A DNA stretch of 64,000 bases, taken from Saccharothrix sp. (GTDB taxonomy: Bacteria; Actinomycetota; Actinomycetes; Mycobacteriales; Pseudonocardiaceae). The stretch is taken from positions 1 to 64,000 of the forward strand of contig NZ_JAPSLK010000028.1 in the NCBI RefSeq assembly GCF_031180885.1, given 5' to 3'. Positions 28,368 to 36,494 of this stretch are shown one piece after another. Both the position numbers and the translations under genes were made by a program. The notes below the pieces were generated by a model. It was given only the letters and a program-made list of their open reading frames with translations. It did no database searches and was not told the DNA's origin. How positions within the stretch are numbered: position 1 is the stretch's first letter; each line of letters begins with the position of its first letter.

Positions 28368-29738
28368 GTGAACGAAGGGCTGTTCGACGAGGGCTTGTTC
28401 GGCGCCACGGACGAGGAGAAGGCGCAGCGCATCGCCGCCAACGCGCCCCTCGCCGTGCGCATGCGCCCCCGCACGCTGGACGAGGTGGTCGGCCAGGGCC
28501 ACCTGCTCGGACCGGGCGCGCCCCTGCGCCGCCTGGTGGAGGGCTCGTCGCCCGCGTCCGTGATGCTCTACGGCCCGCCCGGCACCGGCAAGACCACCCT
28601 CGCCACCCTCGTCTCCCAGGCCACCGGCCGCCGGTTCGCCGCGCTGAGCGCCCTGTCGGCGGGCGTGAAGGAGGTCCGGGCGGTCATCGACGAGGCCCGC
28701 CGCCGGCTGGTGCGCTCGGGCGAGTCGACCGTCCTGTTCATCGACGAGGTTCACCGCTTCTCCAAGACCCAGCAGGACGCCCTGCTCGGCGCGGTCGAGG
28801 ACCGGATCGTCCTGCTGGTCGCCGCGACCACCGAGAACCCCTTCTTCTCGGTCGTCTCACCCCTGCTGTCCCGCTCGCTGGTCCTCCAACTGCGCCCGCT
28901 GAGCGACGACGACGTCCGCTCCCTGGTCCGCCGCGCCACCGCGGACGAACGCGGGTTGAACGGCGCCATCACCATCGCCCCCGACGCCGAGGACCACCTG
29001 GTCCGCCTGGCCGGCGGCGACGCCCGCCGCGCCCTGACCGCCCTGGAGGCGGCAGCCGACGCGGTCACCAACGGGGTGCTGGACCTGGCCACCCTGGAGG
29101 CGACCGTCGACAAGGCCGCCGTGCGCTACGACCGCCAGGGCGACCAGCACTACGACGTGACCAGCGCGTTCATCAAGTCCATCCGGGGCTCGGACGTCGA
29201 CGCCGCCCTGCACTACCTGGCCCGCATGATCGAAGCGGGGGAGGACCCCAGGTTCATCGCCCGCCGCCTGGTCATCCACGCCAGCGAGGACGTGGGCATG
29301 GCCGACCCGACCGCGTTGCAGACCGCCGTCGCCGCGGCTCAGGCCGTGCAGCTCATCGGCCTGCCGGAATGCGCCCTGAACCTGGCCCACGCCACGGTCC
29401 ACCTCGCCACCGCCCCGAAGTCCAACGCGGTGACGGTCGCGATCGGGGAGGCGATGTCCGACGTCCGCAAGGGCCTGATCGGCCAGGTCCCGCCCCACCT
29501 GCGCGACGGCCACTACGCGGGCGCGGCCAAGCTGGGCAACGCCCAGGGCTACCGCTACCCCCACGACGTCCCCGAGGGCGTGCTGACCCAGCAGTACGCG
29601 CCGGACGACCTGGTGGACCGCGACTACTACGTCCCCACCAACCGGGGCGCGGAGCGCTACATCGCCGAACGCCTGCCCAAGCTGCGCAAGGTCGTGCGCG
29701 GCGAGCGAAATTCCGGTGACGATCAAGGCCCCGTCTGA
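28368..29738 (+). CDS. rarA: RarA/MgsA replication-associated AAA+ ATPase
   Basis: 456 aa. Walker [11 protein letters not shown], Walker [10 protein letters not shown], sensor TTENPFF and the RarA-specific C-terminal part ([36 protein letters not shown]). Length is normal for the family. It acts at stalled replication forks with SSB. GTG 28368 lies about 9 nt after a TACAGT hexamer (28354-28359), so the mRNA may be leaderless. It is divergent from the transglycosylase gene. Confidence 0.95.
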
Positions 29739-29751
29739 CACGGTGTGCGCC

Positions 29752-30483
29752 GTGACGGCTTCTCCGCCCCGCAACGGGCACGCTCTCCTCGACTTCAACT
29801 CACCGCTCTCGGACGCCAAGTCCTACGAGCTGATCGCCGGCCTCGGCGACCTCCGGGACAAGACGGTGGTGGACTACGGCTGCGGCTGGGCCGAACTGCT
29901 GCTCCGGGCGGTGGAGCACGAACCGGGGGCGACCGGCGTCGGGGTGGACGGCGACGACTACGCCATCGCGCGCGGCACGGCCAACGCGCGGGCACGTGGC
30001 ATCGCCGACCGGGTCCGGCTGGAGCTGGGCGACGTGACCACCTGGGACGGGCCGGTCGCGGACGTGGCGATCTCCATCGGCGCCTCCCACGCCTGGGGTG
30101 ACGCTCGCGCGGTGCTGGAGGCGATGCGGACCAGGATCCGCCCCGGCGGGCGCCTGCTGCTGGGCGACGGCTACTGGGAGCGGGAACCGTCGGACACCAT
30201 TCGCGAGATGTTCCGGGGCGACGCGCTGGGCACCTTCGAGGACCTGGTGGACCTGGCCCTGGAGTCGGGCTACCGCGTGCTGCGGCTGACCACGGCGAGC
30301 CAGGACGAGTGGGACAGCTTCGAGTCGCGCTGGTGCGGCGCCCGCGAGCTGTGGCTGCTGGAGAACCCGGACCACCCCGAGGCCGCCGCCGTCCAGAAGA
30401 TCGTCGACGACCACCGCGACACCTGGATCAAGGGCTACCGCGGCGTGCTGGGCTTCGCGTACCTCACGCTCGCCCGCCGGTGA
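29752..30483 (+). CDS. SAM-dependent methyltransferase
   Basis: 243 aa from GTG 29752 (GTG at 29743 or 29716 would extend it; the last overlaps rarA). Class I fold: motif I VVDYGCGWAELLL, acidic loop GVDGDDYA, and LRPGGRLLLGDGYW-like post-motif (here IRPGGRLLLGDGYWE). C-terminal region is acidic and Trp-rich. Substrate unknown. It starts 13 nt after rarA and overlaps the convergent Suc/Fer gene by 20 bp at its 3' end. Confidence 0.82.
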   Translation: MTASPPRNGHALLDFNSPLSDAKSYELIAGLGDLRDKTVVDYGCGWAELLLRAVEHEPGATGVGVDGDDYAIARGTANARARGIADRVRLELGDVTTWDGPVADVAISIGASHAWGDARAVLEAMRTRIRPGGRLLLGDGYWEREPSDTIREMFRGDALGTFEDLVDLALESGYRVLRLTTASQDEWDSFESRWCGARELWLLENPDHPEAAAVQKIVDDHRDTWIKGYRGVLGFAYLTLARR

Positions 30484-31477
30484 GGGACGCCCGTCCCGTC
30501 CGGTCGGGGATACCGGACGGGACGGTGCTCCCGACCCGGAACCAGCGCTCCCCGGCGCGGACCAGCGCCTCTATCGACCGGGTGGTGTAGGCGGGCGGGG
30601 TGATCACGCCCGAGCAGCGGCTCGCGCCCGACGCGGTGGCCACCGTGCGGGCCACCGTGACCTCGTACAGGTTGTCCAACCCCTGCACCGTCACCACCCG
30701 CACCTCGTCACCCTCGCCCGGCCGTTCGTCCACCGCGAGCACCGAATCGACGCCGCGCAGCCCGAACGACTTGCGCACCGCGATCTCGGCGAACTGCGCC
30801 CACGGGCTCGGCGCGGACGTCCGGCCCCGCAGCTGCTCCGCCACGACCTGCCCGACCAGCGCGGACTTCGCCACCAGGGCCGCCTCGCCGGGGTCGAGCT
30901 GCCCGTGCAGGAAGCCGTCCGGGACGACCAGCAGGTTGCCCGCCCACCGGTCGCCGCCGACGTGGCTGACCTCCCACGCCCGACCCGGGTGGTTCTGGCC
31001 CAGCACGCCCGCCAGGGGCCGGCCCAGCACCGCGCAGCACACGTCCTTCGTGCCGTGCGTGCAGACCAGGAACAACGGTCCGTCGACCCGCTCGCCGTGG
31101 CCGGGGACGCCCGCCGCGACCGCGGCCACGTCCAGCGACGCGAGGTCGGCCAGGTCGGCGACCTCGATCTTCTCCAGCCACCGGTTGCCCGGCACGCCGC
31201 TGCCCACGAACACGGTGTGCGGCGCGTCGGGGTCGCGCTGGTGCCGGCCGGGACGGCGGATCAGCAGCGGGCGCAGTCCGGCGGCCCGCGGCCCGTCCAG
31301 TCGTCCCGGCCCGAACACCGAGGCCAGGGTCTGCTCCAACGCGTCGGCGGGCCACGGGCCGGGCTGCTCGATCAGCAGCCACGACGTCATCAGCGTCGCC
31401 GTCCCGGCCGGGTTACCGCCGAGTTGGCGCGTCAGCACCGCGCACCCCGGCAGCCCGTCGGAACTTATGTTAGGCAT
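30464..31477 (-). CDS. Suc/Fer-like ferredoxin (thioredoxin-fold Fe-S) protein
   Basis: 337 aa from ATG 31477, which lies inside the iron box. Family hallmarks: GCAVL near residue 12, WLLIEQPGPWP, and the cysteine motif CTHGTKDVCCAVLGRP, then VSHVGGDRWAGNLLVVPDG. These proteins resemble sucrase/ferredoxin-like thioredoxin-fold [2Fe-2S] ferredoxins. The C-terminal 100 residues are an extra domain with a final Cys (ASRCSGV). It follows the JmjC gene by 16 nt on the same strand and probably supplies electrons or handles iron; this is inference. Confidence 0.82.
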   Translation of the reverse strand: MPNISSDGLPGCAVLTRQLGGNPAGTATLMTSWLLIEQPGPWPADALEQTLASVFGPGRLDGPRAAGLRPLLIRRPGRHQRDPDAPHTVFVGSGVPGNRWLEKIEVADLADLASLDVAAVAAGVPGHGERVDGPLFLVCTHGTKDVCCAVLGRPLAGVLGQNHPGRAWEVSHVGGDRWAGNLLVVPDGFLHGQLDPGEAALVAKSALVGQVVAEQLRGRTSAPSPWAQFAEIAVRKSFGLRGVDSVLAVDERPGEGDEVRVVTVQGLDNLYEVTVARTVATASGASRCSGVITPPAYTTRSIEALVRAGERWFRVGSTVPSGIPDRTGRASLTGGRA

Positions 31478-31483
31478 ACCTAA
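31465..31483 (-). promoter_or_regulatory. IdeR/DmdR-type iron box
   Basis: On the minus strand TTAGGTATGCCTAACATAA matches the IdeR/DmdR consensus TTAGGTTAGGCTAACCTAA at 15 of 19 positions. It overlaps the Suc/Fer start codon and lies in the 16-nt gap after the JmjC gene, with another TTAGGC half-site just upstream. Iron-dependent repression of the Suc/Fer gene is inferred. Confidence 0.65.
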
Positions 31484-31493
31484 GCCTAACGGA

Positions 31494-32681
31494 TCATTCC
31501 GGCGCGAGCACCCCTTGTGTGACCAACTCACCGAGCAGTGCCCGGACGGTTACCCGATCGAGGAGCGGAGCGCCCGCCTCGACCAGCTCCTTGATCGGGT
31601 GCCGCGCGGCCCCGATCAGGACCTCCAGCACCGGTTCGGCGGCCTTCGCGAACACCAGCCGCTTGCCCGCCGCGGCCAGTGACACCGTCTCCGGTCCTGC
31701 GGAAAGCACGGCACGGGGCGTCAGGAGGCGCACCTCGGACTCGTCACCCGGTGGGAGGAGGTCCTTGGTCGCCGTCCACGGCATCCCCACGTCCGAGATG
31801 GCCGGGGCCTGCGCGTCCCGGTCGTCGAGGAACCGCGCGACCACGTCGTCGTCCATCAACGCGGCTACGCGTTCCCGCAACGCGCGGGCGCGTTCGGCCT
31901 TCTGCTCGGGCGTGCCGAACCGGGGCAGGTCGGTGCGGAACACCTCCTCGGCGCGCAGTTGGTCGGCCAACCACGCCACCAGGTCCACGCCGGTCGCCCG
32001 GTTGAACCCGATGGTCAGGTGCAGCGATTCCTCGCCGACCGCCGACACGTCGTGCCAGTGCCCGCGCGGCACGTAGAGGACGTCGCCATCCTCCAGCATG
32101 AAGTCGTCGATCGGCTCGCCGGTGGGCTTGTCGGGCAGCACCACGTCCCGCTGGAGCGGCGCCGGCCGGGTCACGCCGTGCACGCGCCACCGCTTGCGGC
32201 CGGAGATCTGGACGATGAGCGCGTCGTGGTCGTCCCAGTGCACGTCGAAGCCGTGCGTGACGCCCCACCCCGCGTAGAGGTTGACCTGGACCCGCTCCCG
32301 CAGCTCGTGCTCCAGCTGCGCGGCCAGGTCGCCGACGGGTCCGAACATCTCGTGGACGGAGTCCAGCACGAGCGTCGCGCCGCCGCGCATCTTCTCGGCG
32401 AACGCGGCGGGCAGCAGCCGGGACACCGGTCCCGTGCGCCGGGTCTCCACCGTCTCGGCGTAGGAGTGCGTCGGGACGACCTCGCCGCCCTGCGCGAGCC
32501 GCAGCCGGGGGAACTCCAGCCGGTGCTGCCGCAGCACCCGGTTGACCTCCGACCACGGCAGCAGGTCGGCGAACCGCCCCGCACGGCCGGGGAACCGCTG
32601 GTGGACCCGGCCCTGCACCGCGTCGAAAAACTGGCTGACCCCGATCGGTGCGACGAGGTCAGCCAGGGTCGGGACGGTCAC
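31494..32681 (-). CDS. JmjC/cupin (ROX-like) Fe(II)/2-oxoglutarate hydroxylase
   Basis: 395 aa. Cupin_4/JmjC core of the ribosomal-oxygenase type: metal facial triad His148 and Asp150 in VHWDDHDALIVQISG and distal His210 in VLYVPRGHWHDV, plus GRKRWRVH for 2-oxoglutarate binding. The C-terminal third is a winged-helix-like dimer region. In this family known substrates are ribosomal proteins or other proteins hydroxylated at Arg, His, Asn or Asp. GTG 32681 follows the stop of a 38-codon gene with no gap (TGAGTG), so the small peptide is a likely substrate. Confidence 0.85.
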   Translation of the reverse strand: MTVPTLADLVAPIGVSQFFDAVQGRVHQRFPGRAGRFADLLPWSEVNRVLRQHRLEFPRLRLAQGGEVVPTHSYAETVETRRTGPVSRLLPAAFAEKMRGGATLVLDSVHEMFGPVGDLAAQLEHELRERVQVNLYAGWGVTHGFDVHWDDHDALIVQISGRKRWRVHGVTRPAPLQRDVVLPDKPTGEPIDDFMLEDGDVLYVPRGHWHDVSAVGEESLHLTIGFNRATGVDLVAWLADQLRAEEVFRTDLPRFGTPEQKAERARALRERVAALMDDDVVARFLDDRDAQAPAISDVGMPWTATKDLLPPGDESEVRLLTPRAVLSAGPETVSLAAAGKRLVFAKAAEPVLEVLIGAARHPIKELVEAGAPLLDRVTVRALLGELVTQGVLAPE

Positions 32682-32798
32682 TCAGTCGTTGCCGTCGGTG
32701 TCGTCCAGGGCGCCGTTGGCCTTGTTGCGGTCGACCGCGCTGGTCAGCGACTCGGCGCTGAGCAGCAGACCGCTGGCCTGGGGGGTCTCGTTCTCCAT
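32682..32798 (-). CDS. 38-aa peptide gene, candidate RiPP precursor
   Basis: ATG 32798 has a near-ideal ribosome site GAGGAGG 7 nt upstream; stop TGA touches the JmjC gene start. The peptide begins MENETPQ, has a central amphipathic helix-prone part LLLSAESLTSAV, then RNKANG and an acidic tail ALDDTDGND without Cys. It has the size and layout (leader-like helix, hydrophilic core with Asp/Asn/Thr) of a ribosomal peptide precursor, and its coupling to a hydroxylase gene supports that. It is too short to be reported by most gene finders. Modification and secretion are inferred. Confidence 0.7.
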   Translation of the reverse strand: MENETPQASGLLLSAESLTSAVDRNKANGALDDTDGND

Positions 32799-33112
32799 GC
32801 CGGTTCCTCCTCTGGTGGGGGGTCGGACGGAAGGTCACGCTACGACAACGAAACCCGTCGAGTCATCGGTCATTTGAGTAGTCCTCACCCTTGATCCCGT
32901 CACGTGGGAAGTGCCAAGCGAGATCCACCAGAGATCATTCGGGTGGCACGCGAGGCCGCGTCGGCTTTCCCGACGATCACGCTTTTCGATCGGCGGGAAA
33001 CGCGGCGCGACGAGCCGACTTCCAGGCGGCCTCGCCTGCCTCGGCGAAGCCGAGGCGATCCGACACGGTAACCTCATCGCACCAAGCCTCAGCTCGCCTT
33101 TCAGGAGGACTC
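32799..33112. promoter_or_regulatory. divergent intergenic region, peptide gene and DUF948 gene
   Basis: 314 bp, no gene seen. For the peptide operon (minus strand) a TAGCGT hexamer lies about 40 nt upstream of the ATG, with ATGACT about 17 nt before it as a possible -35. Near the DUF948 gene there is a perfect hairpin gcctcggc-gaa-gccgaggc (33038-33056), then the AGGAGG ribosome site. A part of the region is AT-richer than its surroundings, as promoters are. Confidence 0.45.
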
Positions 33113-33505
33113 GTGTCGCCAGGGCAGATCGCCGCGCTGGTCGCCGCCGGCGCGTTCGTGCTGCTGGTGATCCTGCTGGCCATCCCGCTGATCAAGCTGG
33201 GCCGCACGCTGGACGAGGCCACCATCGCCATCCGCAAGGCGCACCAGAACAGCGACCCGATCTTCAGCGGCGCGAACACCACGATCACGCACGTGAACAC
33301 CCAGCTGGAGCGGGTGGACGGCATCACCGCCAACGCGCGCGCGGTCACCGGCAACGTCTCCGCGCTGACCTCGCTGTTCACCGCCACCCTGGGCGGGCCG
33401 CTGGTGAAGGCCGCGGCCCTGTCCTACGGCGTCAGCAAGGCCATCAAGGCGCGCCGGCAGGCCGCCCAGGAGCCGAAGAAGCACTCGCGCCGGGGTCGGC
33501 GATGA
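33113..33505 (+). CDS. DUF948 membrane-anchored protein
   Basis: 130 aa from GTG 33113 with AGGAGG 6 nt upstream. N-terminal transmembrane helix (about 5-28), then a coiled-coil-like stretch with NTTITHVNTQLERVD and Ala-rich helix, and a basic tail (KKHSRRGRR). This matches DUF948, which usually sits just before alaS in actinomycetes together with the next small gene. Function unknown, presumably at the membrane. Confidence 0.88.
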   Translation: MSPGQIAALVAAGAFVLLVILLAIPLIKLGRTLDEATIAIRKAHQNSDPIFSGANTTITHVNTQLERVDGITANARAVTGNVSALTSLFTATLGGPLVKAAALSYGVSKAIKARRQAAQEPKKHSRRGRR

Positions 33506-33768
33506 GGCGCCTGTTCTGGTTCGGGCTGGGCATCGCCGCGGGCGTGTTCGCCACCCGCAAGGCGGGCAGGGCCGCGCACGCCGCCACCCCGGCGGGCATC
33601 GGCGCCAACGTCGGCGAGGGCCTGCGGGAACTGGCCGGCGCCATCGGGTCGTTCGGCGCGGAGGTCCGCGCGGGAATGACCGAGCGCGAGCAGGAGTTGC
33701 AGGACACCGTGGAACGTCAGACGGGCTTCACGCCGGGTCGGCGAGCGCGCAGGGCGAACGACCGCTGA
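33502..33768 (+). CDS. DUF6167-like small membrane protein
   Basis: 88 aa from ATG 33502 (ATGA overlap with the DUF948 gene). One short N-terminal hydrophobic helix (LFWFGLGIAAGVFATRKAGRA), then an amphipathic helix and basic C-terminus. It is a conserved companion of DUF948 upstream of alaS. No catalytic motif. Confidence 0.8.
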   Translation: MRRLFWFGLGIAAGVFATRKAGRAAHAATPAGIGANVGEGLRELAGAIGSFGAEVRAGMTEREQELQDTVERQTGFTPGRRARRANDR

Positions 33769-33821
33769 GGTCGTTCGCCTCGCCGTGCCCTGATTTCCAC
33801 TCGTAGACCCAAGGACAACCC

Positions 33822-36480
<2,659 letters not shown>

Positions 36481-36494
<14 letters not shown>

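Follow-up and report, generated by a model that had tools for sequence, protein, structure and literature searches.

A short peptide gene, a JmjC gene and a Suc_Fer gene form a candidate RiPP-like cassette in Saccharothrix and other bacteria

In a 64,000-nt stretch of the genome of Saccharothrix sp. (positions 1 to 64,000 of contig NZ_JAPSLK010000028.1, assembly GCF_031180885.1; hereafter, the window), a gene for a 38-aa peptide lies directly before a gene for a putative JmjC oxygenase, which is followed by a gene for a Suc_Fer protein. The pairing of such peptides with JmjC genes is a large, real family that is found in many soil bacteria and spans two phyla, Actinomycetota and Acidobacteriota. 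We propose that these genes form a cassette of the type that makes ribosomally synthesized and post-translationally modified peptides (RiPPs), in which the JmjC enzyme would hydroxylate its dedicated peptide with Suc_Fer as a partner (probability around 0.7). A first-pass annotation of the window had described a 38-aa open reading frame (ORF) with a strong ribosome site that touches the JmjC gene, followed by an IdeR-type iron box and a Suc/Fer gene. This description was accurate, including the coordinates. The features are as follows.

32805..32811, minus strand: Shine-Dalgarno sequence AGGAGGA of the peptide gene, 6 nt 5' of its ATG (read from the sequence)
32682..32798, minus strand: 38-aa precursor-like peptide; leader with SGLLLSAESL and C-terminal Asp/Asn/Gly tail ANGALDDTDGND
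31494..32681, minus strand: putative Fe(II)/2-oxoglutarate oxygenase of 395 aa, JmjC_2 with the ribosomal oxygenase (ROX) fold; GTG start (Pfam and fold)
31497..31769, minus strand: winged-helix domain at the JmjC C-terminus (aa 305-395) that resembles a RiPP recognition element (RRE) (fold comparison)
31465..31483, no strand assigned: DtxR/IdeR-type iron box between JmjC and Suc_Fer; core 31470-31483, TTAGGCATACCTAA
30464..31477, minus strand: Suc_Fer (PF06999), a putative [2Fe-2S] redox protein; start uncertain (ATG 31477 or GTG 31438)

The peptide ORF translates as MENETPQASGLLLSAESLTSAVDRNKANGALDDTDGND, and its TGA immediately precedes the GTG of the JmjC gene. Pfam identifies the latter as JmjC_2 (E = 3.9e-28) and the gene 3' of it as Suc_Fer-like (E = 8.8e-17). 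We found no match in NCBIfam for the window's peptide or JmjC protein, or for eight related peptides (limit E = 10), no match in Pfam for the window peptide (limit E = 1), and no match in PADLOC for five cassette proteins.

The peptide and its recurrence upstream of JmjC genes

The first-pass annotation had staked its proposal on a search for small ORFs upstream of JmjC homologues. That search found the peptide to be conserved at close homologues, and Asp-rich peptides lie before most of the distant ones that we examined. We scanned 120 genomes from the same family and found a JmjC match in 57 of them, at 66 places. All 15 of the places with at least 65% identity (including the window) have the peptide upstream. 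When the family set was searched with a peptide profile, the 15 strong matches coincided with the 15 genomes that have a close JmjC gene; because the profile was built from those same sequences, the informative part is its near-absence elsewhere (one further marginal match, E = 9e-4). The peptide is also conserved at the amino-acid level: across 35 peptide sequences, the pooled ratio of nonsynonymous to synonymous changes (pN/pS) in the 30-codon core was 0.31, and in 589 of 595 pairs pN was lower than pS. The copy in the window has changed more than most: it has 7 to 17 nonsynonymous differences from five others, and 4 to 9 synonymous ones.

A broader scan of named genomes yielded 546 JmjC relatives, and we analyzed the best 80 loci. 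These come from Saccharothrix, Actinosynnema, Kutzneria, Amycolatopsis, Kibdelosporangium, Actinocrispum, Actinomadura, Actinocorallia, Streptomyces, Kitasatospora, Catenulispora, Actinacidiphila, and acidobacterial metagenome-assembled genomes, among others. (One locus, L069 on JOAA01000014.1, is labelled as Rhodococcus rhodnii NRRL B-16535 but is Kibdelosporangium-like, and the label looks wrong.) A short ORF lies upstream of JmjC in 78 of the best 80 loci. A leader pattern, which we composed after viewing the upstream ORFs of these loci, detects a peptide in 76 of the 80; L100 and L112 carry a peptide outside the pattern, and L086 and L103 end at a contig edge with an Asp-rich tail still visible. 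The pattern-matched peptide of L095 has no Asp in its tail. A leader-pattern peptide ends within 80 nt of the gene for 74 of 80 JmjC genes versus 0 of 284 other genes from the same loci, and just 1 of these 284 control genes has the pattern anywhere upstream.

More distant enzymes also have such peptides. The family scan contains 25 distant JmjC-Suc_Fer pairs, of which we examined 24: 23 have an Asp-repeat-type peptide (L143 and L149 with weaker ribosome sites) and the 24th ends at a contig edge. In a sample across the phylum, 41 of 296 genomes had a JmjC match (E ≤ 1e-20). In 26 of 29 phylum-wide loci, Asp made up at least 14% of an upstream ORF, and in 17 of 29 at least 20%; the counted ORFs end no more than about 100 nt from the JmjC match. 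(In one of the 26, L194, the Asp-rich ORF lacks repeats.) The remaining three are L179 and L180, which have peptides of the SDGND type (type II, below), and L193, which has an ADGG repeat with 12% Asp. By comparison, 3 of 453 other genes had such an ORF at 14% Asp (one of these is itself a JmjC gene) and none of 453 did at 20%; the upstream search covered 900 nt for the phylum loci and 600 nt for these controls.

A few loci do not conform. In the family scan, L027 has no peptide that we could see upstream of JmjC, and ten deeper JmjC matches (L169-L176) fit the pattern unclearly, with no enzyme found in L174. In L169 (G078:C19), the distant JmjC gene follows a frame of tandem VIADNDPSDPVL units, which is possibly another precursor type. 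In L176 (G094:C171), two tandem JmjC matches follow a 42-aa ORF without Asp repeats. In L173 (G016:C1), the distant JmjC gene follows ORFs that, by eye, resemble carrier-protein domains, which suggests a nonribosomal setting.

The peptides mostly end in Asp/Gly-rich tails, which are often repeated, and we sorted them into four types (the labels I-IV are ours). Type I has the leader SGLLLSVEPL, which is identical in Pseudonocardiaceae and Acidobacteriota, although the tails differ: in Pseudonocardiaceae they end in ANGAVADNDGND or a near variant, while in Acidobacteriota the leader is followed by long DGTD/DGSD arrays. Type II (Streptomycetaceae, Actinomadura and its kin, and Catenulispora) has a GLLVARxxIAAAR-like leader and SDGGSTGRSDGND-like tails. 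Type III consists of more distant copies. An example is in the source genome itself, which encodes a second JmjC gene (G000:C102:4299-5300, L167; 36% identity) with its own upstream peptide, MDESELVVQVFRASTVQNRTELQASDGATGDSGETRDP. Type IV mostly has a DDDI/DEDI-like leader (except in L188 and L193) and repeats of ADGG, HDGGADGG, DADTQDAD or DGTDGD. Across the types, peptide length ranges from 32 to about 160 aa, and the number of repeats varies while the leader motif is constant. The acidobacterial peptide genes stop 30 to 116 nt short of the JmjC match, and one acidobacterial locus (L090) has two different Asp-repeat precursor genes before a single JmjC gene. A conserved leader and a variable core encoded beside a modifying enzyme are what is expected of a RiPP system, and here the evidence for them is genomic.

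We tallied the residues in the tails. Asp, Gly, and Ala are in every tallied tail of types I and IV (13, 13, and 11 distinct tails, the set of 11 covering part of the type IV peptides). No histidine occurs in the type I Pseudonocardiaceae or type II tails, which makes His chemistry of the NO66/MINA53 type unlikely as the common reaction. Arginine is scarce in the type IV and acidobacterial tails but occurs in all of the type I Pseudonocardiaceae and type II ones, where it stays a possible target of the modification. The tallied tails of types I, II, and IV have no Cys; L018, which is outside the tally, has two.

The JmjC enzyme and its C-terminal domain

The best solved relatives of the window's JmjC protein are NO66, MINA53, and YcfD. 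Its predicted model (pLDDT 92.9) has their fold over the full length, at 17-24% identity. Its HxD...H triad is intact and is conserved among 40 aligned enzymes (H148 in 39, D150 and H210 in all 40), and K163 is kept in 40 of 40. Thus, the protein combines the JmjC fold, the winged helix, and the triad that define the ROX enzymes.

The C-terminal domain appears to be RRE-like. In a Foldseek comparison of the model, the best matches were RREs (TruD, TbiB1, McbB, and ThcOx), none of them under E = 1e-3; with VIA, ROX winged helices ranked first and some non-RRE domains ranked among the RREs. Sequence-level proof of an RRE failed, so we relied on the fold instead: among 28 JmjC members, Pfam found PqqD in just 3, ROXA-like_wH in 6, and HTH_15 in 9, and a profile search of the PDB put designed helical proteins and MarR-type regulators first, with TfuB1 only at E = 0.92. 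On the modelled fold, the domain resembles RREs, including some that were solved with leader peptides.

In a tree of 86 enzymes, with L052 standing in for the window protein (which was itself left out), type IV forms one side of a branch with support of 100/100, as does the acidobacterial group (100/100), and the type I enzymes of Pseudonocardiaceae have 99/100. The five labels require 5 changes on the tree versus 44.6 in shuffles, with the labels being set largely by where the loci were drawn from. L095 (label II) and L017 and L018 (label III) fall outside their labels.

Suc_Fer, the iron box, and other neighbors

Only the peptide, JmjC, and Suc_Fer are common to all 12 of the close loci that we examined (of 15, with a simple gene caller), and these 12 sit in at least two different genomic surroundings. 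Suc_Fer is next to JmjC in 43 of the 80 named loci, including 30 of 34 from Pseudonocardiaceae and 13 of 14 from Acidobacteriota (Pfam-confirmed in one acidobacterial member). In the family scan it lies downstream on the same strand, within 750 nt, at 40 of the 66 JmjC places, which account for 40 of the 91 Suc_Fer places, and it is downstream in 21 of the 29 phylum-wide loci. C157, H159, C165, C166, H190, and C306 (P0003 numbering) are invariant in 44 of 44 aligned Suc_Fer sequences, which fits a [2Fe-2S] protein. Together with the PF06999 match, this conserved Cys/His set places the protein in the Suc_Fer family, which we take to be Apd1-like [2Fe-2S] proteins; cluster binding is predicted.

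The 32 type II named loci (Streptomyces/Actinomadura type) have no Suc_Fer within the flanks covered. Instead, an aldo/keto reductase follows in 31 of them and an APH-like gene in 29; in L123, the APH-like gene is about 4 kb further on. Support for the APH assignment is weak: the one member scanned gave E = 1e-4, just under the cut-off, and two plasmid members had no Pfam match. This four-gene cassette is also found on the Streptomyces linear plasmids pSV2 and pSglau1 and on an S. virginiae plasmid (L208, L209, and L210), in the order peptide, "cupin domain-containing protein", aldo/keto reductase, and "hypothetical protein". In all three records, the peptide is annotated merely as hypothetical.

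No leader protease or exporter is common to the 12 close loci; elsewhere, only some of the recurring genes were scanned with Pfam. MNIO, B12-radical SAM, and arginase genes are not common to the 12 close loci either, and none is among the nine window proteins scanned. We considered two other neighbors as cassette members and rejected them, as Suc_Fer is present in 12 of 12 close loci but the cluster of the methyltransferase gene (29716-30483, plus strand) is in only 3 of 20 loci and that of the RarA/MgsA-type gene is in 6 of 20. Divergent from the cassette, at 33113-36494, are DUF948, a weak DUF6167 match, and an 890-aa ORF. This block adjoins the cassette in 6 of 20 loci and is probably housekeeping.

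The iron box, TTATGTTAGGCATACCTAA (31465-31483), matches 16 of 19 positions of the IdeR consensus, and the next-best site in the window matches 11. If Suc_Fer starts at the ATG at 31477, then its start falls within the box, while the GTG at 31438 leaves the box just 5' of the gene. The source genome (9.45 Mb) has 6 distinct places with at most three mismatches to the consensus (0 for a reversed-pattern control), and the exact box core occurs at one place. The other sites precede genes for a Lys/Orn monooxygenase, an ABC ATPase, a flavoprotein, and an MFS protein, except for one that follows the 3' end of an Fe/Mn superoxide dismutase gene. The predicted operator is of a kind shared with siderophore-type genes, as expected for the DtxR/IdeR regulon. 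The JmjC-Suc_Fer interval has a site of 12 to 15 of 19 positions in all 34 Pseudonocardiaceae loci: the exact core TTAGGYATRCCTAA is in 24 of them, with no second copy in the locus, and the variant TAAGGCATGCCTAA is in the other ten. In L062, L063, L064, and L083, another site in the same locus scores higher (14-16).

From these patterns, the box is probably a true iron operator that serves Suc_Fer. The first-pass annotation had also placed the peptide under iron control, and this did not hold up: upstream of the peptide, the best sites in the 34 Pseudonocardiaceae loci match only 9-12 of 19 positions (13 in L059). As no comparable site lies 5' of the peptide, we rejected iron control of the whole operon. 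No box stands out in the 14 acidobacterial loci (best 9-11), and the 24 type IV loci (the distant JmjC-Suc_Fer pairs) have none (best 10-12, no better than shuffles). An iron role specific to the Pseudonocardiaceae clade is speculative.

Proposed function and relation to known systems

Gene order and conservation give good support to a RiPP-like function, and the fold gives moderate support. We propose that the small gene encodes a precursor peptide whose N-terminal leader (SGLLLSxExL) would be bound by the RRE-like domain of JmjC. With Fe(II), O2, and 2-oxoglutarate, the active site would then hydroxylate side chains in the Asp/Asn-rich tail. The most likely product would be beta-hydroxylated Asp (or Asn), and we put this particular chemistry at slightly under even odds. 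Suc_Fer could donate electrons to maintain the JmjC iron in the ferrous state, or its target could be a metal-bound product; in Pseudonocardiaceae, the promoter of Suc_Fer itself carries the iron box. The RRE-like domain and the cross-phylum leader strengthen the RiPP reading, which the first-pass annotation had put forward and which is borne out in part: the conserved peptide, the domain, and the leader speak for it, but the iron link it invoked is restricted to Suc_Fer and to Pseudonocardiaceae.

Could the short ORF instead be a regulatory upstream ORF, or a chance ORF that merely couples translation to JmjC? The peptide's stop does abut the JmjC start in the window, but this explanation is very improbable. 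The pN/pS of 0.31 and the recurring pairing, set against control rates of 0/284 and 3/453, indicate that the ORF is more than chance; also, related peptides reach about 160 aa with protein repeats, and the acidobacterial peptides end well short of the JmjC match. Alternatively, the peptide might be a small acidic partner of JmjC (a metal chaperone, activator, or pseudosubstrate), with another protein as the substrate, such as a ribosomal protein as for YcfD and NO66. This would fit with the ROX fold across the full length of JmjC, with the lack of a protease or transporter common to the 12 close loci, and with the potential of acidic peptides to bind metal. Nevertheless, it seems improbable because length and repeat number vary while the leader stays, as in RiPP precursors, because L090 has two precursor genes, and because the C-terminal domain resembles RREs that were solved with leader peptides.

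A bolder form of the hydroxylated-peptide proposal, whose odds overlap with it, is that the modified peptide binds metal for iron handling: hydroxy-Asp would bind Fe(III) or another metal, and Suc_Fer would reduce the complex. The box before Suc_Fer in every Pseudonocardiaceae locus, the sites of the same consensus upstream of the Lys/Orn monooxygenase and the ABC ATPase, and the Asp-rich tails are consistent with this idea. We consider it unlikely, given that the box is missing from the acidobacterial and distant JmjC-Suc_Fer loci and from before the peptide, that no uptake or export gene is common to the close loci, and that Suc_Fer is missing from the flanks covered in the 32 Streptomyces/Actinomadura-type loci. 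More broadly, the cassettes might represent a new RiPP class of Actinomycetota and Acidobacteriota in which an RRE-JmjC enzyme makes poly-(beta-hydroxy-Asp) peptides from Asp-rich, often multi-repeat precursors; Suc_Fer, or the aldo/keto reductase and APH-like protein in Streptomyces and Actinomadura, would complete the chemistry, and the product would serve iron handling in Pseudonocardiaceae. This full scheme is rather doubtful.

Several known systems are related. NO66, MINA53, and YcfD share the whole-protein fold, the triad, and the C-terminal winged helix, but the presumed substrate here is the product of an adjacent small-peptide gene instead of a ribosomal protein. RiPP metallophores such as bufferins and methanobactin involve MNIOs and Cys-containing peptides. 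They resemble the present system in having a small ribosomal peptide and an iron enzyme, and possibly a link to metal stress, but here the enzyme is a JmjC protein and the tallied tails lack Cys. Cinnamycin is a RiPP with beta-hydroxy-Asp, which is the product residue that we predict. In some RiPPs, this residue is made by canonical 2-oxoglutarate enzymes (passages of PMC12636437); in contrast, our peptides have many Asp each, the JmjC enzyme has an RRE-like domain, and Suc_Fer is the only further shared enzyme at the close loci. We set aside Xia et al. (2025, JACS) as prior art because, according to a passage of PMC12636437, it concerns a Cys-Tyr crosslink. The biphenomycin-type RiPPs have JmjC/cupin enzymes (BipG/BpmG/PbsQ), and BipG and PbsQ hydroxylate ornithine (passages of PMC12707348 and PMC12257519). 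The likeness is a JmjC/cupin enzyme that acts on a ribosomal precursor peptide, by hydroxylation there and as proposed here. As described in those passages, their clusters also include MNIO, RRE partner, arginase, and B12-radical SAM genes and the target is ornithine, whereas the present cassette has a peptide with an Asp-rich tail, a JmjC protein with its own RRE-like domain, and Suc_Fer.

The first-pass annotation had called the system undescribed, which is nearly right. One sentence of PMC12710340 (2025) places the closest bacterial JmjC (PF08007) homologues in RiPP-like contexts; its JmjC proteins with a fused RRE share the Pfam family and the RRE-like domain with ours, and the passages concerned name no precursor, leader, Suc_Fer partner, or bacterial distribution. 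The main text of the RRE-Finder paper (PMC7470986) does not mention JmjC or cupin. Our search, which covered an open-licence full-text library, turned up no account of these peptides or of their pairing with Suc_Fer. The work of Iyer et al. (2010, NAR) on peptide-modifying dioxygenases may include earlier remarks of relevance.

If the proposed function is correct, a large set of bacterial JmjC "cupin domain-containing proteins", and many Suc_Fer proteins with them, would gain a specific substrate and partner that can be tested. The ribosomal-oxygenase fold would also be linked to natural products made from peptides, and there would be many Asp-rich precursors in which to look for hydroxy-Asp peptides.

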